From assembly GCA_025925185.1 (NCBI GenBank), contig JAICLV010000059.1:1-13395 (forward strand): DNA of 13,395 nucleotides, written 5' to 3'. Shown in pieces: positions 1-10,785 of the stretch. The translations under genes and the position numbers were made by a program. The first letter of the stretch is position 1; every line of letters begins with the position of its first letter. A model generated the notes under the pieces. The model did no database searches. It was not told the origin of the DNA and saw nothing but the letters and a program-made list of their open reading frames with translations. The stretch comes from Acidothermaceae bacterium (GTDB taxonomy: Bacteria; Actinomycetota; Actinomycetes; Acidothermales; Acidothermaceae).

Positions 1-2280
1 GCGCAGCTGTACGGCGTGTGGGTAGGCGCGGACGCCTCCGGCGAAGGCGTCGCCCCGCACCAGCACGACCTTGCCGAGGTGCCCGCTGACTGGGACGCGC
101 TGATCGCGAACGGTCTGGGTCAGCTCACCCGGCCGTGGGGCACCGCGCCCGGCGACCCCGCGCTCGGCGCCCGCGCGCTCGCCCGCACGCAGGCCGACAT
201 GATCGCGGCGAACAGCCACTGCATACCTGACGTCGTCCACGAAGAGTGCCTTTCAGGCTTCATGACGTGGGGCGCGACGATCTACCCCACGCCGCTGTCA
301 TGGGGCGCGAGCTTCAACCCCGAGCTGGTCGAGCGGATGGCGAACCAAATCGGCGCGGCGATGCGCTCCGTCGGCGTCCACCAAGGTCTAGCGCCTGTGC
401 TGGACGTCACTCGCGACTATCGCTGGGGTCGGGTCGAGGAGACCATCGGCGAGGACCCGTACCTCGTCGCCACGATCGGCACCGCGTACGTGCGCGGCCT
501 GGAGTCGGCCGGCATTGTGGCCACGCTCAAGCACTTCGTCGGCTACTCGGCGTCGCGCGCCGGCCGCAACTTCGGCCCGGTCCACGCCGGCCCCCGCGAG
601 CTGGCCGACGTCTTGCTCCCGCCGTTCGAAATGGCGGTCCGCGACGGCGGCGCGCGTTCGGTCATGCACGCCTACACCGAGATCGACGGCGTACCGGGCG
701 CGGCCAACCACCAGACTCTGACCGAGTTGCTCCGTGACAGCTGGGGCTTCGAGGGCACCGTCGTGGCCGACTACTTCGGCGTCTCGTTCTTGCACCTGCT
801 CCACCACGTCGCCGCCGACGATGCGAGCGCGGCCGCCCTGGCGCTCGACGCCGGCGTCGATGTGGAGTTGCCCACGATGCGCTGCTACGGCCGGCCGCTG
901 GCGGACGCGGTCCGCCACGGTGAGGTCAGCGAGGACCTGATCGATCGGGCCGTCCGACGGGTGCTGATCCAAAAGTGCGAACTCGGCCTGCTCGATCTCG
1001 ACTGGCAGCTCGAGCCGACGGCGCTCACCGATGGTGAGCGTGGTCTGGACGGCGACATCGACAGCACCCGCGGAACCCTCACGCTCGATCCCCCGGTAGC
1101 GCGCGCGGTCGCGCCCGGAAGCGCCGAACAGGCGATCGTGCTCGTCGCCAATGCCGGCACGCTGCCGCTGGCCGCCGACGCCAGCCTCGCCGTGGTCGGG
1201 CCGCGCGCCGACGACGCGCTCTCGATGTTCGGGTGCTACTCCTTCCCCAGCCACGTCGGCAGCCACCATCCCGAATTGCCTTGGGGAATCACGGTTCCGA
1301 CGGTTCTCGAGGCGATCCGCGCCGAGCTGCCCGGCGCCACCGTGAGCTACGCGCAAGGCTGCGAGGTCGACACCCCCGACACGTCTGGAATCCCGGCCGC
1401 CGTCGCGGCGGCGAGCGCCGCCGACGTGTGCGTCGTCGCGCTTGGCGACCGCGCCGACCTGTTCGGTCGCGGCACCTCCGGCGAAGGCTGCGACGCGCTC
1501 GATCTGTCGCTGCCTGGCGTGCAGGGCAAGCTGCTGGAAGCGCTGCTGCAGACCGGAAAGCCGGTCGTCGCGGTGCTCTTGACCGGGCGCCCGTACGCGC
1601 TCGGCCAGTACGCGGACCGGCTCGCCGGCGTCGTCCAAGCTTTCTTCCCCGGTGAGGAGGGCGGGCCGGCGATCGCGGGCGTGCTGTCGGGCCGGGTCAA
1701 CCCGTCCGGCCGGCTTCCAGTGAGCCTCCCGACGTCTGCGGGCGGCCAACCGGCCACCTACCTGACGCCACTGCTCGGCATGCGGACCGAGGTCAGCAAC
1801 ATCGACCCCACGCCGCTGTGGCCGTTCGGGCACGGGACTTCATACACCGCGTTCTCCTGGGACGACGTGCGCGTCGCGGGTCGGCCGGCCGACGACACCG
1901 TCGCCGAAGTCGCCACGGACGGTGAGGTCGAGGTCTCCGTCTCCGTGCGCAACGTCGGTAACCGCCGTGGCGCCGAGGTCGTCCAGTTGTACCTGCACGA
2001 CCCAGTCGCGCAGGTCACCCGACCCGAGACGCGGCTTGTCGGCTACGCGCGCGTCGAACTCGACCCTGGCGAGCAACGCGTCGTCGCGTTCCAGTTCGCC
2101 GCAGACCTGTCGTCGTTCGCCGGCGTGCGGGGCGAGCGAATCGTCGAGCCCGGCGAGCTGGAGCTTCGCTTGGGTCGGTCGTCGGCGCAGACCGAGGGCG
2201 TTGTCCGGTTGCAGGTCACCGGCCCCGAGCGCACGGTTGGCATGTCGCGCAGGCTCGTCGCGCACGCGCTAGTGCGGTAA
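1..2280 (+). CDS. GH3 beta-xylosidase/beta-glucosidase, 5' end missing
   Basis: Glycoside hydrolase family 3 enzyme that removes terminal beta-linked sugars from oligosaccharides by a retaining mechanism. The frame is open from base 1 (reading AQLYGVWVGADASGEG), so the true start lies upstream; the GTG at 16 is internal. 759 residues are visible. Numbered from base 1, the GH3 N-terminal barrel spans about 1-330 and contains GEDPYLV, KHFVGYS and VVADYFGV, where D257 is the expected nucleophile. The second alpha/beta domain spans about 375-610 and contains GRGTSGEGCD, where E495 is the likely acid/base. A fibronectin-III-like domain covers about 640-720. The HEECLSGF and LPPFEMAVRDGGARSVM segments look like actinobacterial beta-xylosidases, so I favour xylosidase over glucosidase, but substrate cannot be settled from sequence. 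Only 10 bp separate it from the GH43 gene, implying co-transcription. Whether it has a signal peptide cannot be seen. Confidence 0.95.
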   Translation, partial: AQLYGVWVGADASGEGVAPHQHDLAEVPADWDALIANGLGQLTRPWGTAPGDPALGARALARTQADMIAANSHCIPDVVHEECLSGFMTWGATIYPTPLSWGASFNPELVERMANQIGAAMRSVGVHQGLAPVLDVTRDYRWGRVEETIGEDPYLVATIGTAYVRGLESAGIVATLKHFVGYSASRAGRNFGPVHAGPRELADVLLPPFEMAVRDGGARSVMHAYTEIDGVPGAANHQTLTELLRDSWGFEGTVVADYFGVSFLHLLHHVAADDASAAALALDAGVDVELPTMRCYGRPLADAVRHGEVSEDLIDRAVRRVLIQKCELGLLDLDWQLEPTALTDGERGLDGDIDSTRGTLTLDPPVARAVAPGSAEQAIVLVANAGTLPLAADASLAVVGPRADDALSMFGCYSFPSHVGSHHPELPWGITVPTVLEAIRAELPGATVSYAQGCEVDTPDTSGIPAAVAAASAADVCVVALGDRADLFGRGTSGEGCDALDLSLPGVQGKLLEALLQTGKPVVAVLLTGRPYALGQYADRLAGVVQAFFPGEEGGPAIAGVLSGRVNPSGRLPVSLPTSAGGQPATYLTPLLGMRTEVSNIDPTPLWPFGHGTSYTAFSWDDVRVAGRPADDTVAEVATDGEVEVSVSVRNVGNRRGAEVVQLYLHDPVAQVTRPETRLVGYARVELDPGEQRVVAFQFAADLSSFAGVRGERIVEPGELELRLGRSSAQTEGVVRLQVTGPERTVGMSRRLVAHALVR

Positions 2281-2290
2281 CGGCGTAGCG

Positions 2291-3916
2291 ATGCCGCGAT
2301 CCACGCCAGCCCGGTTTCGCAATCCCGTGCTGCCTGGATCGCATCCCGACCCGTCGATTTGCCGCGTCGGTGACGACTACTACGTCGTCACCTCGACGTT
2401 CGAGTACTTCCCGGGCCTGCCGGTGCACCACAGCAAAGACTTGGTGCACTGGCGGTTGATCGGACACGTGCTCGACCGTCCCGACCAACTCGACCTTGAC
2501 GGCGTGCGAGCCTCCGGTGGCCTCTACGCGCCGACAATTCGCCACCACGACGGCGTTTTCTACGTGATGTGCACACTGGTCGACGGCAACGACGCGAGCG
2601 GAAACTTCGTCGTCACCGCCACGGACCCGGCCGGCAAGTGGTCCGACCCGGCGTGGCTACCCGACGCCGACGGGTTCGACCCGTCGTTGCTCTTCGACGC
2701 CGACGGGTCCGCCTGGTATTGCGCGACCAGGCAGCTAGACGAGGCTGGTCACACGGCGGTGTGGGTGCAGCGGTTCGACGCGAGCAATCTGGCGCTGACC
2801 GGCGAGAAGTCCGTTATCTGGCAAGGCGCGTTGCAGGGTGCGCGCTGGTCGGAGGCCCCGCACATTTACCGGGTCGGCGACTGGTATTACCTGCTCACCG
2901 CCGAGGGCGGCACCTCGATGGAACACGCGGTCGTCGTCGCCCGCAGCGCGCAGGTCACCGGACCGTATCTCGGGTGCGAGCGCAATCCGGTGCTGACCGC
3001 GCGGCACCTCGGCGCCAACGCGCCCGTTGTCGCCACCGGTCACGCCGACCTCGTCGAGACCCAAAACGGCGAGTGGTGGGCGGTGCTGCTCGGCGTGCGC
3101 GACAGCGAGCGCGGCAACCTCGGGCGAGAGACCTTCCTCGCGCCGGTCACCTGGGAAGACGGCTGGCCGGTGTTTTGCCCGGGAGTCGGTCACGTGCGCC
3201 TCGCAGAGCGCCGTCCGACATTGGACGACGCGCGGTGGCCGACACCGCCGCGTTGCGACTCGTTCGACGACGCAGGGTTGGCGCCCGAGTGGATGTTCGT
3301 GCGCACGCCGCGCGAATCTTGGTGGTCGCTCGGTGATCGACCCGGATGGCTGCGACTTCACGCGCGCCCGGTGGCGTTGACCGACGCCGCGAATCCGAGC
3401 TTCGTCTGCCGCCGCCTGCGGTCACGCGACTTCACGGCGTACACCGCGCTAGAGCTCGCGCCGAGCTCGGACGACGAAACGGCGGGCGTCGCGCTGGTGC
3501 ACAGTCCTGATTTCCAGCTGCGCTTTGAGATCTTCGGTGTCGACCGACGGACGGCACGCGTCGTGCGTCGCGCCGGGGGCGTAGACGAGATCGCCGGGAC
3601 TCTGCCGGTCGCACAAGGGTTGATCCGGTTGGGTGTCGAGTCGCGCGGCACCTCCACCGAATTTCGCTTAGATGACGGCGAAGGCTGGCGCATCGTGGCA
3701 CGATGTGATGCAAGCCATCTAAGTTACCGATCAGCCGGCGGCTTCTTCGGCGTCGTGATCGGCATGTTTGCGGCCGGCGGCGACCAACCGGAACCGGGGG
3801 TCGCGGACTTCGACTGGTTCGAACTCAGCGACGACTACGACGCCGAACTCGGGGGCGGTGCCGACGACACCGCCTCGTATCCTTGCAGGACCGATCCACC
3901 CAGGGAGTTCTCGTGA
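2291..3916 (+). CDS. GH43 beta-xylosidase (subfamily 11-like)
   Basis: Inverting glycoside hydrolase that cuts single xylose units from the non-reducing end of xylo-oligosaccharides; some relatives also have arabinofuranosidase activity. The 541 residues match the length of the two-domain xylosidases typified by Selenomonas SXA. All three catalytic carboxylates are present at the expected spacing: D20 in HPDPS (base), D130 in DGFDPSLLFD (pKa modulator) and E188 in WSEAPHIY (acid). The five-bladed propeller covers about 8-320, and a C-terminal beta-sandwich (GH43_C2 type) about 325-530. There is no signal peptide or membrane segment, so it should be cytoplasmic. The ATG lies 10 bp after the GH3 stop with no convincing Shine-Dalgarno site, which suggests translational coupling. 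The 3' end overlaps the start of the LacI gene by 4 bp. Confidence 0.96.
   Translation: MPRSTPARFRNPVLPGSHPDPSICRVGDDYYVVTSTFEYFPGLPVHHSKDLVHWRLIGHVLDRPDQLDLDGVRASGGLYAPTIRHHDGVFYVMCTLVDGNDASGNFVVTATDPAGKWSDPAWLPDADGFDPSLLFDADGSAWYCATRQLDEAGHTAVWVQRFDASNLALTGEKSVIWQGALQGARWSEAPHIYRVGDWYYLLTAEGGTSMEHAVVVARSAQVTGPYLGCERNPVLTARHLGANAPVVATGHADLVETQNGEWWAVLLGVRDSERGNLGRETFLAPVTWEDGWPVFCPGVGHVRLAERRPTLDDARWPTPPRCDSFDDAGLAPEWMFVRTPRESWWSLGDRPGWLRLHARPVALTDAANPSFVCRRLRSRDFTAYTALELAPSSDDETAGVALVHSPDFQLRFEIFGVDRRTARVVRRAGGVDEIAGTLPVAQGLIRLGVESRGTSTEFRLDDGEGWRIVARCDASHLSYRSAGGFFGVVIGMFAAGGDQPEPGVADFDWFELSDDYDAELGGGADDTASYPCRTDPPREFS
3902..3907 (+). promoter_or_regulatory. Shine-Dalgarno site for the LacI-family gene
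   Basis: AGGGAG lies 5 nt before the GTG at 3913, inside the last codons of the GH43 gene. This site decides the start of the repressor. A TTG at 3883 in the same frame would extend the protein by ten residues, but it lacks such a site. Confidence 0.8.
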
Positions 3917-4932
3917 ATACCGGCGAGCGCCGTCGTGTCACCATCGCGGACATCGCCGAAGAGGCAGGGGTCTCTGTACCGACCGTCTCCAGAGTCTTGA
4001 ACGGCCGAATGGACGTCGCGCCTGAAACGCGAGGCCGCGTCGAGGAATTGCTGCAGCGGCACGACTACCGTCGCCGGGGGACGCCCAAGACCGGACAGGC
4101 CAGCCTCATCGACCTTGTCTTCACCGACCTCGACAGCCCTTGGGCGGTCGAGATCATCCGCGGCGTGGAAGACGTCGCGCACGACTTCGGCGTCGGCGTC
4201 GTCGTCTCGGCGGTTCACAGCAGGGCGACCTCCGAACGACGCTGGTGGCAAAACGTCCAGGCGCGCGCGTCTGACGGCGTCATCTTGGTCGCGTCGCATC
4301 TGCACCCCAAGCTCGAGGCCCAGCTTCGCCGCCATCCACCGACGGTGGTGGTCGACCCAGCAGGAGTGCCCACCGCCGACCTGCCGACCATCGGCACGAC
4401 GAACTGGGCGGGCGGCCTCAGCGCCACCGAGCACCTGATCAGCCTCGGCCACCGAAGGATCGCCATCATCAGCGGGCCGCCGCGGCTGCAATGCAGCCGG
4501 GCCAGACTCGACGGCTACCGCACCGCCCTCGACGCCGCGGGGATCGGGCCCGACGACACTCTCGTCTACCAGGGCGACTTCTATCACGAGTCCGGATTCG
4601 CGGGCGGGCAGAAGTTTCTCGCGCTCGACCAACCGCCGACCGCGATCTTCGCGTCGAGCGACCAGATGGCTTACGGCGTCTACGAGGCCGTGCGCCAGCA
4701 GGGGCTGCGCGTTCCGGCCGACGTCAGCATCGTCGGTTTCGATGACCTGCCCGAAGCCCGCTGGTCGTCGCCACCGCTCACGACGGTCCGACAACCCCTG
4801 TCTGAGATGGGCGTGCTGGCCGCCCGCACCCTGCTGCGGTTGGTGCGCGGCGAGGAGATCGAGACGCTGCGCTTCGAGTTGGCCACCCAACTGGTGGTGC
4901 GCGAAAGCACCTCGACACCCCGCGACGCGTAA
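3913..4932 (+). CDS. LacI-family transcriptional repressor of the xylosidase operon
   Basis: DNA-binding repressor of 339 residues. The N-terminal helix-turn-helix is canonical (about residues 9-31, TIADIAEEAGVSVPTVSRVL followed by NG). It is followed by a sugar-binding periplasmic-binding-protein-like domain (about 65-335) with typical landmarks: GHRRIAIISGP, the GYRTALDAAGI segment, AIFASSDQMAYGVYEA, VSIVGFDDLPEA and TTVRQPLSEMG. The GTG start overlaps the GH43 stop (GTGA) and has a good Shine-Dalgarno site, so it is the last gene of the xylosidase operon. By position it most likely senses xylose or xylo-oligosaccharides and represses this operon. The ligand is inferred from context only. 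A candidate operator lies downstream at 5058-5074; the operon's own promoter is outside the window. The hinge region is arginine-rich (DYRRRGTPKTG) rather than the common YxPN form. Confidence 0.94.
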   Translation: MNTGERRRVTIADIAEEAGVSVPTVSRVLNGRMDVAPETRGRVEELLQRHDYRRRGTPKTGQASLIDLVFTDLDSPWAVEIIRGVEDVAHDFGVGVVVSAVHSRATSERRWWQNVQARASDGVILVASHLHPKLEAQLRRHPPTVVVDPAGVPTADLPTIGTTNWAGGLSATEHLISLGHRRIAIISGPPRLQCSRARLDGYRTALDAAGIGPDDTLVYQGDFYHESGFAGGQKFLALDQPPTAIFASSDQMAYGVYEAVRQQGLRVPADVSIVGFDDLPEARWSSPPLTTVRQPLSEMGVLAARTLLRLVRGEEIETLRFELATQLVVRESTSTPRDA

Positions 4933-5057: not shown

Positions 5058-5074
5058 GTCCGAAAGTTTCGGAC
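5058..5074. promoter_or_regulatory. Putative LacI-family operator palindrome
   Basis: GTCCGAAAGTTTCGGAC is a perfect inverted repeat of two 8-bp arms around a single central G. The CGAAAGTTTCG core resembles, from memory, the GAAA(C/G)TTTC-type operators reported for actinobacterial xylan and xylosidase LacI repressors. It lies 126 bp after the LacI stop and about 145 bp before the chemoreceptor-like gene, with no other gene between. It could therefore place that gene under the neighbouring repressor. No clear -35/-10 pair could be assigned around it. I saw no second copy in the window. Confidence 0.6.
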
Positions 5075-5206: not shown

Positions 5207-5211
5207 GGGAG
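5207..5211 (+). promoter_or_regulatory. Shine-Dalgarno site for the chemoreceptor-like gene
   Basis: GGGAG lies 7 nt before a TTG at 5219. It favours TTG-5219 as the start over the in-frame ATG at 5180, which has no good site in front of it. Confidence 0.6.
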
Positions 5212-5218
5212 TCAAACG

Positions 5219-6838
5219 TTGAGTACCAACGTTGAGATGCACGCGACACCGCCCGCAGCCGACCTGCGGCGCGCCTTGACGGCGCGGCTGGCCGAGGCAG
5301 CCGTCGTGACGGTCGGCATTGTCGTGGCCGCCCTCTTGGCGAGCGGGCACCAGGTGGGCTACGCCATCGCGGTGGGCGCCGTCGCCGCCGCCGTCGTCAT
5401 CGGCGTGGTCACGGCGGTGCATCGGCGTGAGGCGGCCGATCTGCGCGCGATGGCGGGCACGCTCGAAATGCTCGCGGACGGCGACCTCACCACCGACGTG
5501 CCGCAGTTCAACTCGGGCTCGGCTCATGAGATTTCTCGGTCCACAGCAGCACTGGTCCACAAGCTGCGCGAAGTCCTGACGGAGAACCAGCGCGTCGCCG
5601 AGCTGCTCGGCAACCAATGGCAGCAGATGAACGAGGTCGCCTGGGCGATGATGTCGATGTCCGAGGGCACCGTCAAAGACGTCGCAGCGGCCGCCGCCTC
5701 CGCCAACGAGGTCTCGGAGCGGATCGCCGTCATCGCGGCCGGCGCCGAGGAGACGGCCGCCACCATCAAGGACGTCGCCGACCACGCGTCGCAGGCTTCG
5801 ACGGTCGCGGCGTACGGCGCGCGGCAGGCGGGTGGCGCCAGCGAGACGTTCGGCGAGTTGGAAGCGGCGTCAAACCGCGTTGAGTCGATCGTCAAGCTGA
5901 TCGTGAGCATCGCGTCGCAGACCCACCTGCTAGCGCTGAACGCGACGATCGAGGCGGCCCGGGCCGGTGAGCACGGCCGCGGCTTCGCGGTCGTCGCGGG
6001 CGAGGTGAAGCAACTCGCCGAAGCGACCGCACATGCCACCGACGACGTCATCGCCACGATGCAAGACATCAAGAACGGCTCGCAAAGCGCGTCGGCCGCG
6101 ATGTCCGGCATCACCACGACGATCGAGCAGGTGAACGACTCGCAGTCGGCGATCGCCGCCGCCGTCGTCCAGCAAACAGCCGTCACCGAGTCCATCGGCA
6201 GCAGCTCGTCGATCGCGGCCGAGCGCGCCACCACACTGGCTTCCAACGTGAAGGCGTTGACCGACGCCGTCCGGTTGAGCGCGTACAGCGGAGCGCAGGC
6301 CCGCACGGTCGCGGCCGACGTCCAAGGTGCGGAGTCGACGTTGCGCTCGCTGCTCGGCGGATTCCGCTTCACGCCGGTCGAGGTTGTCGCGTCGGACGAC
6401 GTGCAGGTCGAGCTCACAGGCGGGGTCGAGCAAGCGAACGGCGTCACGACGGTGCAGAACTGGGTGCAGGGCAGCGGCCTCAACCAGTTCAACTACCAGG
6501 GCAGGTGGGGCCACGCGACCGCCAATGTCGAGGCCAACGGCACGAACTCGCACTCGAGCATGCCCGGCGACACTGCGACGCTGCGATTCGTGGGCACCCG
6601 AATCCGCTTCTACGGTGTGGCGGCGGCGAACCACGGTATGGCCTCGGTGTGCGTCGACAATGGGCCGGAGAGCGTCATCGACCAGTACTCGGAGAACCGC
6701 GTGCACGGCGTGATGAACTGGGAGAGCCCGGTGCTGCCGCACGGCGAGCACACGCTGAAAGTAACCGTGCTCGGCGACGGAAACCCACGGTCTCGCTACG
6801 TCTGGATCAACGTCGACCGAGTCGAAATCGTCGACTGA
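5219..6838 (+). CDS. MCP-type signalling protein with C-terminal galactose-binding-like module
   Basis: Membrane-anchored chemoreceptor-like protein of 539 residues (TTG start; an ATG at 5180 would add 13). Two hydrophobic helices (about 25-42 and 46-67) are joined by a loop of a few residues, so there is no extracellular sensor domain. Arginines at 17, 18, 23, 69 and 70 predict that both termini are cytoplasmic. A HAMP-like stretch follows (about 71-118). The coiled-coil MCP signalling domain spans about 120-388, with the near-canonical hairpin tip [20 protein letters not shown], then [15 protein letters not shown]. The signalling domain ends in SLLGGFRF, where many MCPs stop. Here about 125 more residues form a beta-sandwich-like module (about 415-539): [52 protein letters not shown]. 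It resembles galactose-binding-fold modules at the ends of secreted glycosidases. Signalling partners (CheA/CheW) are not in the window. Ligand and function are unknown; carbohydrate sensing is inferred. Confidence 0.9.
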
Positions 6839-6865
6839 ATCGACACTGTCGAGATCGTCGACTAA
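6812..6865 (+). repeat. 27-bp tandem duplication spanning the gene's stop codon
   Basis: 6812-6838 and 6839-6865 agree at 21 of 27 positions, including ATCGTCGACT at 6827-6836 and 6854-6863. The first copy encodes VDRVEIVD and a TGA stop. The second, still in frame, encodes IDTVEIVD and a TAA stop. This looks like an old in-frame duplication of the end of the chemoreceptor-like gene. Confidence 0.7.
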
Positions 6866-6887
6866 CGCGGCGTGGCATCCTGAGGGC

Positions 6888-7313
6888 ATGCCGATCGACC
6901 CTCGCCACGAGAACTTGTTGACGGCCCGCGACATCGGGGTGCTCGCGACCATCAAGCGCGACGGGCGCCCGCAGCTGTCGACCATCAACTACAACTTGGA
7001 CGCCGCGCGCTCGCTTGTGCGGATCTCCGTGATGGACGATCGCGCGAAGGTCCGCAACCTGCGCCGCGACCCGCGCGCGAGCCTGCACGTCTCCAGCCCG
7101 GACGGTTGGCGGTGGGTCGTCGCCGAAGGCACCGCGCGACTTTCGCCGGTGGCGGCAAAGCGTGACGACGCGACAGTCGAGGAGTTGATCGACGTGTATC
7201 GCGCGATCCGCGGCGAGCATCCCGACTGGGACGACTACCGGCGCGCGATGGTCGAGGACAAGCGGCTGGTGCTGAGCATCGAGGTCGAGCGCACATACGC
7301 GTATCGCGAGTAG
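6888..7313 (+). CDS. PPOX-class flavin/F420-dependent enzyme (Rv1155-like)
   Basis: Small split-barrel protein of 141 residues in the pyridoxamine-phosphate-oxidase-like superfamily. It closely resembles mycobacterial Rv1155, a PPOX-class protein that binds cofactor F420. Shared landmarks are IGVLATIKRDGRPQLS near the N-terminus, RAKVRNLRRDPRASL in the middle, VAEGTARLSP, and GEHPDWDDYRRAMVEDKR near the C-terminus. Members are cytoplasmic homodimers that bind F420 or a flavin; the physiological substrate of this subgroup is not firmly known. The ATG matches the usual length. The nearby TGAGGG (6881-6886) is only one or two bases from the ATG, too close for an ideal Shine-Dalgarno site, so translation may be leaderless or coupled. 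It lies 49 bp after the chemoreceptor-like gene and converges on holB with 3 bp between stops. I see no functional link to the sugar genes. Confidence 0.93.
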   Translation: MPIDPRHENLLTARDIGVLATIKRDGRPQLSTINYNLDAARSLVRISVMDDRAKVRNLRRDPRASLHVSSPDGWRWVVAEGTARLSPVAAKRDDATVEELIDVYRAIRGEHPDWDDYRRAMVEDKRLVLSIEVERTYAYRE

Positions 7314-7316
7314 CGG

Positions 7317-8495
7317 TCAACCGGCACGCAACTGAAGCATCAACGACTCAAGCGCGAGCAACGGATTCGCGTTGGCGTCGAGCAACTGCCGGCAGACGAG
7401 GATCGCGTCGAGCCGGCGCAAGGTCGACTCGGGTGTCGAACTACTTGCCAGCGCGCGCATCTCGCCCTCCCGGTCGGCGTTCGCGACTTCGACGCCGGAG
7501 TTGAGCTGCAGCACCAACACGTCGCGGTAGAAGCCGGCGAGATCGGTGAGCGCGCGATCGAACGCGTCACGGCTCGTGCGTGTAGCGCGCGACTTTTGCC
7601 GCCCCTCAAGCTCTTTCAATGCGGACGACGCCGCGCGGCTGGCGCCGCGCGTGATCGCGGCGCCGCTGTGACCGCGACCGAGCCCGGTCGCCGAGGCTCC
7701 TTCGCCGAACGCCTCTTTCAGCGAAGCCGTCTCCGCCTCGTCCAAGTCGGTGGTGAGTTCGGCCGCCTCGGCGTTGACGGACTTCACCAACGCGTCAGCA
7801 GCGGCAAGGCAGGCGCCGACGTCCGAAAGCTGTGACGGGATGCGCAACACCGCGTCGCGACGGCCGCGGGCGGCTTTGTCGGTGGCGAGCCTTCGCGCGC
7901 GGCCGACATGGCCGGCGGAGACGCGAGCAGCGAACGTCGCCGTCTTGTCATCGACGCCGTCGCGCGTTTGCAGCATGGCTGCGACGGCGTCGATCGGTGG
8001 GGTGCGCAACGCCACCACGCGGCATCTCGACCGGATCGTCACGACGAGATCTTCTGCCGACGGCACGCACAGCAACCAGACCGTCCGCGCGGCGGGCTCC
8101 TCGATCGCCTTCAGCAGCACGTTCGCCGCGCCTTCGGTGAGTCGGTCGGCGTCCTCGATGACCATCACGTGCCAACCGGCGCCGGACGGCGAGAGCGCCG
8201 CACGGGACACGAGTTCGCGCGCCTCTTTGACTCCGAGCGAAAGCCCTTGCGGGCGAACGAATTCGACATCGGCGTGCGTGCCGGCGAGCACCGTGTGGCA
8301 GCCGGCGCACACGCCGCAGCCAGGCTCGTCGGCGGTGCACTGCAACGTGGCGGCGAACGCCCGCGCGGCGACAGAGCGACCCGACCCCGGGGGGCCGGTG
8401 AACAACCACGCGTGGGTCATGCCGACGCCACGCGCGGCGTCAAACAGCGTCTCGACCACCCGCTGTTGCCCGATCAACTCGTCGAAGACGCTCAT
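7317..8495 (-). CDS. holB: DNA polymerase III subunit delta-prime
   Basis: Clamp-loader subunit that works with gamma/tau and delta to load the beta sliding clamp at primer-template junctions. 392 residues. The N-terminus (FDELIGQQRVVETL) begins the AAA+ domain. The P-loop reads GPPGSGRS, with Arg40 where active ATPases have Lys, consistent with delta-prime being a non-hydrolysing member. A four-cysteine zinc module follows (C53, C60, C63, C66). A Walker-B-like VMVIEDADRL, LLKAIEEPAARTVWLL and an SRC motif (TIRSRCR) complete the AAA+ core. The C-terminal helical domain is alanine-rich with weaker conservation. The ATG is preceded by AAGGGG. The gene lies 7 bp after the thymidylate kinase gene, and the two are surely co-transcribed; tmk-holB is a common bacterial pairing. 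Confidence 0.96.
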   Translation of the reverse strand: MSVFDELIGQQRVVETLFDAARGVGMTHAWLFTGPPGSGRSVAARAFAATLQCTADEPGCGVCAGCHTVLAGTHADVEFVRPQGLSLGVKEARELVSRAALSPSGAGWHVMVIEDADRLTEGAANVLLKAIEEPAARTVWLLCVPSAEDLVVTIRSRCRVVALRTPPIDAVAAMLQTRDGVDDKTATFAARVSAGHVGRARRLATDKAARGRRDAVLRIPSQLSDVGACLAAADALVKSVNAEAAELTTDLDEAETASLKEAFGEGASATGLGRGHSGAAITRGASRAASSALKELEGRQKSRATRTSRDAFDRALTDLAGFYRDVLVLQLNSGVEVANADREGEMRALASSSTPESTLRRLDAILVCRQLLDANANPLLALESLMLQLRAG

Positions 8496-8498
8496 GTT

Positions 8499-8504
8499 CC
8501 CCTT
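8499..8504 (-). promoter_or_regulatory. Shine-Dalgarno site of holB overlapping the tmk stop
   Basis: On the minus strand AAGGGG precedes the holB ATG by 3 nt (5 nt from AAGG). Its first two bases are the AA of the TAA stop (8503-8505) of the upstream kinase gene, suggesting coupled translation. Confidence 0.65.
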
Positions 8505-10785
8505 ATTTGCGCCCGATTTTGATGGGTGCCGTCAGTTGGACGGTGCTCGACGCGGGCGGCACGACGGGCTCGAGGCGCCGCACGATGAGGCGGTGGATGA
8601 CGTCCGGCGGGAGCGAGGCGTCGACGACGAGATAGCGATCGGGCGCGGTGTTGACGAGCTCGCGAAAGGCGTCACGCACCCGCTGATGGAACTCGAGCGA
8701 CTCGGCCTCAAGGCGATCAGGGCCGTCGTCGCGCGATACCGCCCGGGCCAGGCCGTCCTCGACGCGAAGGTCGAGGAGCACGGTGACGTCAGGCTTCAAC
8801 CCCGAGGTCGCGAACGACGAGAGGCGCTCGACCTCCCCCATCGACAAGTCGCGGCCCGCACCCTGGTAGGCCAGGGAGGAGTCGACGTAGCGGTCGGTGA
8901 TGACGACCGCGCCGCGCGCGAGCGCCGGCCTGATGACCGACGCCACGTGCTCGGCGCGGTCAGAGGCGTACAGCAACGCCTCGGCGCGGGGCGAGAGCTC
9001 GCCGGTGTCGGGGTCTAGCAACAGCTGACGCAACCGCTGGCCGACCGGCGTCGCGCCCGGTTCGCGGGTGACGACGACTTCGTATCCGCGCGCCGCGAAC
9101 CAGTCAGCGAGGAGCCGCGTTTGGGTCGACTTGCCAGCGCCCTCGCCGCCCTCGAACGCGAGGAAGAAGCCGGTCGTGACACCGCGGCCGGTGAGCGGGT
9201 GGTGGCCGCGCAAAGCGGCGCCGAGGTCGCGCCACAGCGGCACGTCGCGATCGTCCATCTGACGGTAGGCGATGATGCCGACCACGAACGCGATCGCACC
9301 CGCGCCCAACAACGTGAGGGACGGACCGTCGGCGCGCAGGACGATGTTTTGGAAGTGCAACGTGTGCAAGCCAATGGCACCCGAGATGAAGGGCCCGGCC
9401 ACCACCATCAACAGCAAGGTGACTTGCATCATCGATTGCAATGTCGCCCAGGTGCGGCCGCGCTTGGAGTCTTCGACCTCCAAGCCGAGCAAGGTGTAAC
9501 CGGTCACCCACGCCACACCTGAGCATGCGCCCATCAGCGTCGCGCCAAAGACCACGAGCACCAGGTTGTGGATAACCGCGGTGACTGCCAGCACGAGGCC
9601 GGCGGCCGTGATCGCGATGGCGAACAGCCGACGCCGCGACAGCTGACCGAGAAAGCGCGGGCCGAGGAACATGCCGGCCGCCAAGCCCACGAACACCGAG
9701 CCGAACAGCAGGCCGTAACCGGGGTCGCCACCGCCCAGGTCGGCGACGTACAGCTTCGCGAGCCCGACGACGACGCCCGCCGCCGCGAAGGCGCCGAGCA
9801 TCCCGATGACGAGGCCGCGCACGACCTTCGTCTGGCCGACGAACTGCCAGCCGTCGATGATCGACGCGATCACACCTGGACGCGCGGCGTGGTCGTCACC
9901 GGCGGAGGCGTCGACCGCGCGGTCGCGTCGTCCGCCCTGATGCGACACCTCGTGCAACGTGAAGATCGTCGCGGCGGACACCAGGAACGTCGACGCGTTG
10001 AAGTACAACGCGAGATCGACCTGGTTGGTCGTGAAGAACGGCCAGCGGCTGGCGAGGATGCCGGTGAGGAAGCCGAGCACAGCGAAGACACCGCCGGCGA
10101 CCGGCGCCGAGCCGTAGGTGGTGAGCAGGCTGAGCTGGTTGGCCCGCTCGAGGCGCTCGCGAGGAACCAGGTTGGGGACCGTGGCCTCCTTGGCCGGGAT
10201 CCAAAAAAGGCTCAGCGTCTCGATGAGGAAGGTCGCGGCGAACAGCCACCACAGCGTGTGCACGAGCGGGATGGAGACGTAGAGCGAGAACCGCCCGATG
10301 TCGGCGATGACCATGGTCATGCGTCGGTCGAGCCGATCAGCGAGGGCGCCCGCGAGCGGCGCGAGGGTGACCGCTGGCAGCAGGCGGACGAACACCACGA
10401 TGCCGACGGAGAAGTTCTTTGCCAAGAACGTGTGGCTGGTGGCAAGCGACGTGGCCAAGGACGTCTGCGCGAGGAAACCGAGCCAGTCGCCGAAGCTCGA
10501 CAGCGAGAGCGCGATCCACAGCTTGCGGAACGACTTGATGCCCAGCACACCCCGGAAGCCGACGACACCGTCGGTGCCGGAGGCGGCGCGCAACGCCGTC
10601 GCTGGCGACGGTCCGGGCGACGGCGTTCGCTGCGACGTCTGCGGATCGCTGATGGCGTGCTCCTGCGGGCATGCGGACCGGCCCCCTAGCCAGCCCTCGC
10701 GACCTTCAGTATCCCGTGCCGGCGGCGAAATGCCGTCCTTGCCGCCCCCCGCATGGCTCTTACCCGGCCCTCGCGCCGCCCGCAC
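8503..10785 (-). CDS. tmk: Bifunctional MFS transporter-like/thymidylate kinase fusion
   Basis: Fusion of a polytopic major-facilitator domain with thymidylate kinase, the enzyme converting dTMP to dTDP for DNA synthesis. From the GTG at 10785 it has 760 residues. About 1-77 is a Gly/Pro/Arg-rich region without recognisable domain. About 78-525 carries many hydrophobic helices and an MFS motif-A-like loop (GALADRLDRRM). About 538-745 is a complete kinase: P-loop FEGGEGAGKSTQ (Lys552), TREPGATPVGQRLR, DRYVDSSLAYQGAGR and a LID-like RDDGPDRLEAES. The kinase motifs are intact, so this is probably the cell's essential Tmk. Such fusions are known in Actinobacteria; the role of the membrane part is not established. 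The start is uncertain: a good Shine-Dalgarno (10660-10665) sits before an in-frame ATC at 10653, and another GTG lies at 10548. Upstream is topA (173-bp gap) and downstream is holB. Confidence 0.95.
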   Translation of the reverse strand: MRAARGPGKSHAGGGKDGISPPARDTEGREGWLGGRSACPQEHAISDPQTSQRTPSPGPSPATALRAASGTDGVVGFRGVLGIKSFRKLWIALSLSSFGDWLGFLAQTSLATSLATSHTFLAKNFSVGIVVFVRLLPAVTLAPLAGALADRLDRRMTMVIADIGRFSLYVSIPLVHTLWWLFAATFLIETLSLFWIPAKEATVPNLVPRERLERANQLSLLTTYGSAPVAGGVFAVLGFLTGILASRWPFFTTNQVDLALYFNASTFLVSAATIFTLHEVSHQGGRRDRAVDASAGDDHAARPGVIASIIDGWQFVGQTKVVRGLVIGMLGAFAAAGVVVGLAKLYVADLGGGDPGYGLLFGSVFVGLAAGMFLGPRFLGQLSRRRLFAIAITAAGLVLAVTAVIHNLVLVVFGATLMGACSGVAWVTGYTLLGLEVEDSKRGRTWATLQSMMQVTLLLMVVAGPFISGAIGLHTLHFQNIVLRADGPSLTLLGAGAIAFVVGIIAYRQMDDRDVPLWRDLGAALRGHHPLTGRGVTTGFFLAFEGGEGAGKSTQTRLLADWFAARGYEVVVTREPGATPVGQRLRQLLLDPDTGELSPRAEALLYASDRAEHVASVIRPALARGAVVITDRYVDSSLAYQGAGRDLSMGEVERLSSFATSGLKPDVTVLLDLRVEDGLARAVSRDDGPDRLEAESLEFHQRVRDAFRELVNTAPDRYLVVDASLPPDVIHRLIVRRLEPVVPPASSTVQLTAPIKIGRK
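10660..10665 (-). promoter_or_regulatory. Shine-Dalgarno-like CAGGAG inside the 5' part of the MFS-tmk frame
   Basis: On the minus strand CAGGAG is followed after 6 nt by ATC (10653-10651), which is codon 45 of the frame opened at 10785. No ATG, GTG or TTG occurs at that spacing in frame. It may mark the true start with a rare ATC initiator, or it may be chance. Confidence 0.35.

Follow-up and report, generated by a model that had tools for sequence, protein, structure and literature searches.

Introduction

Sugar chemotaxis is known mostly via periplasmic binding proteins or the PTS. With Trg and Tar, which work with periplasmic binding proteins, and with the PTS, sugar uptake machinery informs chemotaxis, as it would in the system considered here; unlike those systems, the receptor in the window (the whole stretch of Acidothermaceae DNA that was analysed, 13,395 nt) itself bears a module of the type found on sugar-acting enzymes, and this module is predicted to lie inside the cell. 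Chemoreceptors with C-terminal sensor domains have also been described: the cited part of PMC7390727 counts at least 17 types, of which CZB is the most populated, and calls them poorly characterised. CZB receptors such as H. pylori TlpD carry a cytoplasmic sensor domain after the MCP domain, as the window receptor appears to do (cited parts of PMC7390727, PMC13001251 and PMC8262984), but CZB is a zinc-binding sensor of HOCl or zinc, whereas the domain in the window is CE2_N-like and tied to sugar loci.

Two further systems invite comparison. Modules of the CE2_N type (PF17996), known from carbohydrate esterase 2, GH59, GH25 and other proteins, are homologous in sequence to the one studied here; many of their hosts, enzymes among them, begin in the manner of secreted proteins, whereas the module in the window sits on a receptor, is predicted to be cytoplasmic and scores below the Pfam cut-off. 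The Streptomyces bxl system (bxlR, bxlEFG, bxlA) has a LacI-family regulator, an ABC importer, a xylosidase and the CGAANNTTTCG motif in common with our locus (cited part of PMC12772271), to which the window and its syntenic relative, L001, add a chemoreceptor gene with its own operator-like site.

An earlier note on this DNA had taken the receptor architecture to be undescribed. That view has to be given up for the topology, which is not new because C-terminal sensor domains on MCPs are already known, and a CE2_N-like domain may itself be among the 17 or more types of PMC7390727. The new part is the use, as a C-terminal sensor, of a module otherwise found on sugar-acting enzymes and other proteins; our search of the open-licence literature found no paper on a chemoreceptor with a CE2_N module.

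The receptor gene and its domain order

The features of the receptor gene, in window coordinates, are as follows.

5207–5211, + strand: Shine-Dalgarno-like GGGAG, upstream of TTG 5219
5219..6838, + strand: chemoreceptor gene, 539 aa from TTG 5219; the longest ORF, from ATG 5180, gives 552 aa
5273..5428, + strand: two-helix membrane hairpin with loop GHQVGY, without an extracytoplasmic domain (hydropathy scans)
5429..5575, + strand: HAMP-like segment below the Pfam threshold, boundaries approximate (alignment pattern and sub-threshold HAMP matches in relatives)
5777..6253, + strand: MCP signalling domain (PF00015, E 1.9e-27) including its hairpin tip (conservation over an alignment of 43)
6254..6385, + strand: C-helix end and short variable linker (alignment)
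6386..6835, + strand: C-terminal CE2_N-like module, predicted cytoplasmic, core starting near 6431 (homology, conservation and topology)

The coding frame given in the earlier note is open without interruption from 5219 to 6838, and a TTG start at 5219 is plausible because GGGAG precedes it and because both GGGAG and TTGAGT recur in L001. The order proposed there, a membrane anchor, a HAMP-like segment, an MCP hairpin and a C-terminal module, also holds. PF00015 matches with 96.6 bits against a cut-off of 34.6 and covers model positions 1–163 of 172. The HAMP assignment is looser: the Pfam scan gave no HAMP match in the window protein at E 0.01, and the best score seen in relatives was 19.2 bits, under the cut-off of 25. 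Pfam scan, database search and alignment agree on a separate conserved domain of about 140 residues placed after the signalling domain.

A C-terminal module homologous to CE2_N-like modules

Searched against 5.8 billion proteins, residues 385–539 of the window protein gave 53 matches with E values from 2.2e-97 to 4.2e-18, so the module is not a product of chance. All but one of these matches (52 of 53) are chemoreceptors, as are 11 of 11 matches to the module of a paralogue, and the fusion is therefore a real family. The non-receptor match, which is also the least significant (E 4.2e-18), is a GH59 galactosylceramidase, P0054, that carries PF17996 in a precomputed list.

With Pfam CE2_N itself the window module reaches 15 bits (E 0.027), a weak match well short of the 27.9-bit cut-off. 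Among the receptors scanned, the highest scores are 25.0 and 25.8 bits (E 1.2e-5), also below that cut-off, and membership in the CE2_N-like group is thus by homology and not by Pfam threshold, although one receptor, P0043, is assigned PF17996 in the protein database's precomputed list. In alignment A2, CE2_N matches 24 of 43 members at E ≤1, the best (7e-6) being a GH59 protein, and a GH25 protein, P0080, exceeds the cut-off with 30.4 bits. Homologues of the module thus occur on GH59, GH25 and further proteins, which supports the identity that the earlier note had proposed for it. For the galactose-binding-like fold suggested there, the only structural hint is a weak match (i-E 0.01), in a profile search of the PDB, to residues 332–415 of 3nqh, a glycosyl hydrolase; a plain phmmer search of the PDB with the module returned nothing below E 0.3. 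Other matches in the PDB were set aside: the T18.1 pilin match adds up two repeats whose individual i-E is 1.1, and those to Scone (i-E 120 per repeat) and MiXBM (E 0.82) in the profile search were taken as chance.

Among the non-receptor frames that bear the module, 25 of 40 have a hydrophobic stretch in their first 160 residues and therefore look secreted-type; for some of the remaining 15, the frame starts right at the border of the retrieved locus. At loci L084–L091 the non-receptor module occurs two to three times per frame in 7 of 8 loci, with a hydrophobic stretch near the start in all 8.

Conservation separates the receptor modules from the others. Twelve residues (G418, W430, G441, F457, G459, G466, G473, D480, R494, L506, H511 and W529) are invariant, wherever a letter is present, in 31 non-redundant receptor modules, which places the module under strong constraint. 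R494, W529, N471, H472, N443, R456 and S503 are kept at 0.90–1.0 across the same 31, whereas in 56 other modules the most frequent residue at these seven columns accounts for only 0.32–0.38, a pattern that would be expected of a specialised site. Rows below 80% identity were kept for conservation (31 of 69 receptor and 56 of 78 other modules), 33 other rows entered the tree, and both analyses omitted L031 altogether, along with any module match that covered less than 96 of the 149 model positions; the row that stands for the window was taken from P0002, whose sequence and that of the window protein differ at three positions. In the tree, the receptor modules require one label change, with a support of only 79, and the tree is compatible with a single origin for them.

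Whether jelly rolls of this type touch sugar has been addressed in two esterases. In the cited part of PMC2661963, the CtCE2 jelly roll is not the cellulose-binding site and the mutant Y683A there behaves like wild type, yet W127A in CjCE2A, in or at the jelly roll, raised KM for xylan and glucomannan. Sugar contact by a CE2_N-type jelly roll is, on this showing, no more than plausible.

Predicted topology

Hydropathy gives two membrane helices with a loop of 1–13 residues in 48 of 52 family members, the window protein included; of the remaining four, two have one helix and two have three. The count covers those of 64 examined proteins whose tip motif lies beyond residue 200, the other 12 being fragments, shorter members such as P0018–P0020, and P0002, which has a changed tip letter. 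P0018–P0020 and a paralogue, G001:C133, have no membrane helix predicted from hydropathy, and the receptor of genome G473 reaches no more than a borderline 1.57, at a peak within its helical bundle. No other sensor domain, and no outside ligand domain, was seen in family members.

Because the hairpin has two helices and a short loop, because no outside ligand domain is present and because some relatives are helix-less, the module should be cytoplasmic. Its likely position can be narrowed further: in alignment with an ordinary receptor of the same genome (L003), the module begins past the end of the C-helix, and general receptor structure would put it at the membrane-proximal end of the bundle. 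The predicted intracellular placement of a module of this kind is the odd part of the architecture, a consequence that the earlier note had not drawn.

Distribution of the receptor family

In the four receptor matches whose source name includes an organism, that organism belongs to the Acidothermaceae (4/4). Two of the three genomes examined from the order of genome G001 contain the module; G001 encodes three module-bearing receptors and G003 five, one of which (L031 8554–9975, G003:C26) is interrupted in the assembly and contains ambiguous bases. At L029 (7802–10894), two chemoreceptor genes stand in tandem, one with and one without a C-terminal module.

Wider searches, in which no more than about ten candidates per genome were scored, gave module matches in 39 of 393 genomes of a class sample at E 1e-15 and profile matches in 55 of 396 genomes of a phylum sample. 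Translations and a receptor profile identified module-bearing receptors in two class-sample genomes, G411 and G473, which belong to orders distinct from that of G001; the module occurs in 1 of 5 and 1 of 1 genomes of those orders. Searched for across Actinobacteria, as the earlier note had suggested, the same architecture was thus found in G001, G003, G411 and G473. No chemoreceptor frame was present in 29 phylum-sample loci outside G001 or in 8 further class-sample loci, and the receptor profile, run over 39 loci (L034–L062 and L082–L091), matched L082 and L083 only. A simple tip motif proved too strict and missed these two true receptors.

The window locus and a candidate operator

Upstream of the receptor gene the window holds the following features.

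1..2280, + strand: GH3 beta-xylosidase/alpha-L-arabinosidase (NF052329, 1089 bits, cut-off 1050), 5′ end outside the window
2291..3916, + strand: GH43 with GH43_C2 domain, no signal peptide visible (Pfam scan)
3883..4932, + strand: LacI-family regulator, start codon uncertain, HTH match from residue 20
5058..5074, no strand assigned: palindrome GTCCGAAAGTTTCGGAC, candidate BxlR-type LacI-family operator, between the LacI and receptor genes
5061–5071, no strand assigned: operator core CGAAAGTTTCG, upstream of the receptor gene

Domain matches bear out the GH3, GH43 and LacI genes that the earlier note had placed before the receptor, the GH3 gene being cut by the window edge. L001 (JAICYF010000052.1, an Acidothermaceae MAG) is syntenic with the window, with identities of 84% for GH3, 78% for GH43, 92% for LacI, 83% for the receptor, 88% for holB, 89% for the dTMP kinase-MFS protein and 94% for topA. 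Its gene order is a divergent ABC importer, GH3 xylosidase/arabinosidase, GH43, LacI and receptor, the importer consisting of an SBP_bac_1 protein with a lipoprotein-like start and two permeases; by analogy, a similar importer may sit beyond the left edge of the window. GH43 opens directly with its catalytic domain, and by eye neither it nor the L001 GH3 has a signal peptide, so imported oligosaccharides would be cut intracellularly, in the compartment predicted for the module. Two minor features of these contigs may be recorded. The dTMP kinase-MFS gene (window 8503–10785, − strand, 760 aa) is a single ORF in which MFS transporter-like and thymidylate kinase halves are fused, and is kept in L001, and L001 has G+C-rich tandem repeats of about 30 bp between LacI and receptor (8870–9030) that were not seen in the window intergenic region.

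The palindrome before the receptor gene resembles a described operator. In the cited part of PMC12772271, CGAANNTTTCG before Streptomyces xylan genes is linked to the LacI-family regulator BxlR, with xylobiose as putative ligand, and the motif is matched in sequence at window 5061–5071, a candidate site for LacI binding. The pattern CGAAASTTTCG, selected after the palindrome had been seen, has a single match in the window, ahead of the receptor gene, and no match in 200 shuffles. In L001, three sites match CSGAAASTTTCSG with at most one mismatch, where 0.11 would be expected and no shuffle reached three. Two of these (3576 and 3721) fall between the probable start codons of importer and GH3, which are themselves inferred, and the third (9045) lies before the receptor; the longest possible ORFs would take in both of the former, that of GH3 covering 3721 and that of the importer 3576. 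The receptor-side site (one mismatch) and one of the two GH3-side sites each carry a mismatch.

CsnR, a regulator of chitosanase genes, belongs to the ROK family. The GAAACTTTC core lies within an oligonucleotide around the CsnR palindrome, with different flanks (cited part of PMC3048496), and the core alone therefore fails to name the regulator. When seven further receptor genes of G001 and G003 were searched for shared palindromes, none proved to have a similar operator upstream. A CGAAACTTTCG site at 8529 in L032, within a BPD_transp_1 permease gene that neighbours an SBP_bac_5 gene, was taken as chance. For the window and L001, the simplest reading of the sites is that the receptor would belong to a xylan-sugar regulon.

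Neighbourhoods of other receptor loci

Nine receptor loci have readable neighbours, the window and L001 being counted once as the same locus; L092, a contig of 3.5 kb, says little on neighbourhood. Sugar genes adjoin five of the nine (L001, L023, L028, L030 and L093). At L023 these are an FGGY kinase, a class II aldolase, sugar ABC genes and a binding protein, the PF13407 match of which stops 226 bp short of the receptor; at L028, an aldose epimerase, an FGGY kinase, two LacI proteins, AraA and two permeases; and at L030, DeoR and GatZ/KbaZ, which flank the receptor on the same strand. At L093, in G473, the order is two GFO/IDH/MocA oxidoreductases, a permease, a binding protein, an ABC ATPase, a ROK protein and the receptor (9151–10476), which closes a same-strand run with the sugar ABC and ROK genes, 7 bp behind ROK, and is followed on the opposite strand by a ROK-family HTH protein. 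The arabinose-locus receptor of L028 is also adjoined by a gene for a GGDEF-EAL protein (5801–8134, − strand).

The other four loci (L024, L027, L029 and L031) have no sugar genes among the scanned neighbours, which are FtsH/S9 peptidase, GntR-aminotransferase, RsgA/amino-acid permease and RadA/ProDH. With PF13407 as marker (31 places in G001 and G003), three of the eight receptors in these two genomes have a match within 4 kb, where 3.9% would be expected (binomial 0.003); the figures are 2 of 8 at 2 kb (0.016) and 3 of 8 at 6 kb (0.006), all drawn from small numbers, short contigs and partly approximate receptor coordinates. One of five module-less receptors also lies within 4 kb of a PF13407 match. 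The link to carbohydrate genes asserted in the earlier note therefore stands in part: five of nine loci lie near sugar genes, and in L001 related operator sequences stand on the GH3 side and before the receptor, but four of nine loci lack such neighbours. That note had counted homologues never found near glycosidase genes as evidence against its reading; the L001 receptor lies beside GH3 and GH43.

A possible sensor of imported sugar

We consider it somewhat probable that the cytoplasmic CE2_N-like module reads the imported sugar pool and sets CheA, and that the receptor gene is co-regulated by LacI. A CE2_N-like module would have been fused past the normal end of the MCP signalling domain; the ABC transporter would import xylo- or arabino-oligosaccharides, and GH3 and GH43 would cut them inside the cell. 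With sugar present, the BxlR-like LacI protein would release both the xylosidase operon and the receptor gene. The module, for which carbohydrate binding is predicted from its relatives and its locus, would read the internal pool of oligosaccharide or product, and in its ligand-bound form would alter the membrane-proximal end of the helix bundle; we infer that CheA activity, and with it the direction of the response, would be set in this way. The fusion, the family, the hydropathy pattern, the locus, the operator sequence and the che genes of relatives are observed, and the other steps are inferred. Several results count against this account: the sub-threshold CE2_N scores of the scanned receptors, the behaviour of the CtCE2 jelly roll, the four loci lacking sugar genes, the module-less receptor close to a PF13407 match, the degenerate tip in G473, the choice of operator pattern after the fact together with the mismatches in L001, the failure to find such an operator at seven further receptor genes, and flagellin being found in G001 but in neither G002 nor G003.

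The module might instead be a protein-docking domain: binding no sugar itself, it would link the receptor to a cytoplasmic partner that carries the sugar (ABC ATPase, ROK, LacI or GH). This we regard as unlikely, if worth keeping in view. The G473 receptor shares its gene run with an ABC ATPase and a ROK protein, several of the receptor-specific conserved residues are charged or polar, and direct evidence for sugar binding by CE2_N jelly rolls is thin in the cited part of PMC2661963; but the neighbours vary from locus to locus (GH3/GH43, FGGY/aldolase, AraA, GatZ, ROK) while the core residues of the module remain fixed. We give rather less weight to a module that senses an intracellular non-carbohydrate, the sugar neighbourhoods having arisen by chance or because sugar operons abound. 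Such a sensor would suit the four loci without sugar genes among their scanned neighbours, and the enrichment comes from few loci, but the three of eight receptors within 4 kb of PF13407, against about 4% of gene positions in G001 and G003, the operator sites common to the GH3 side and the same-strand sugar-gene run in a genome of another order all speak for carbohydrate.

There are receptors that lack an outside ligand domain and monitor the state of the membrane or of the cell's energy, and by that precedent the module could be a tail without sensory role, with signalling via the membrane hairpin and HAMP-like part only; the twelve residues invariant in 31 non-redundant modules make this improbable. 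A module outside the cell that binds polysaccharide directly is hardly credible. Its non-receptor relatives do look extracytoplasmic, given their hydrophobic starts, and its hosts include GH59 and GH25, but here a two-helix hairpin stands ahead of the signalling domain, some members are helix-less, and CheA and CheW are cytoplasmic.

The reading of the module as an internal sugar sensor can be extended beyond this locus. In Acidothermaceae and some other actinobacteria, an enzyme-borne CE2_N-like module may have been recruited as a cytoplasmic sugar sensor, its copies having multiplied to follow different imported sugars (xylo-oligosaccharide, arabinose and others) by direct binding; this wider proposal is a serious possibility that we hold tentatively, as falling somewhat short of probable. 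If true, chemotaxis by the internal pool of imported sugar would be a route distinct from sensing by periplasmic binding proteins and by the PTS. Movement would be coupled directly to imported plant-polymer sugar, with the receptor probably sharing a regulon with the matching importer and xylosidases, and the ligand of a C-terminal-sensor chemoreceptor would be predictable from the neighbouring operon.

Signalling partners in related genomes

The earlier note had proposed a check for cheA and cheW, and such partners are present in relatives of the window. G001 encodes one CheA bearing two CheW domains, another CheA-like kinase that has a receiver, and also CheB, CheR and CheW; CheW domains were found at 6 places in G001, 4 in G003, 6 in G411 and 3 in G473. 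The hairpin tip of the G473 receptor is degenerate, so not every member need signal alike. Flagellin was not found in G002 or G003, and G001 encodes two flagellins.
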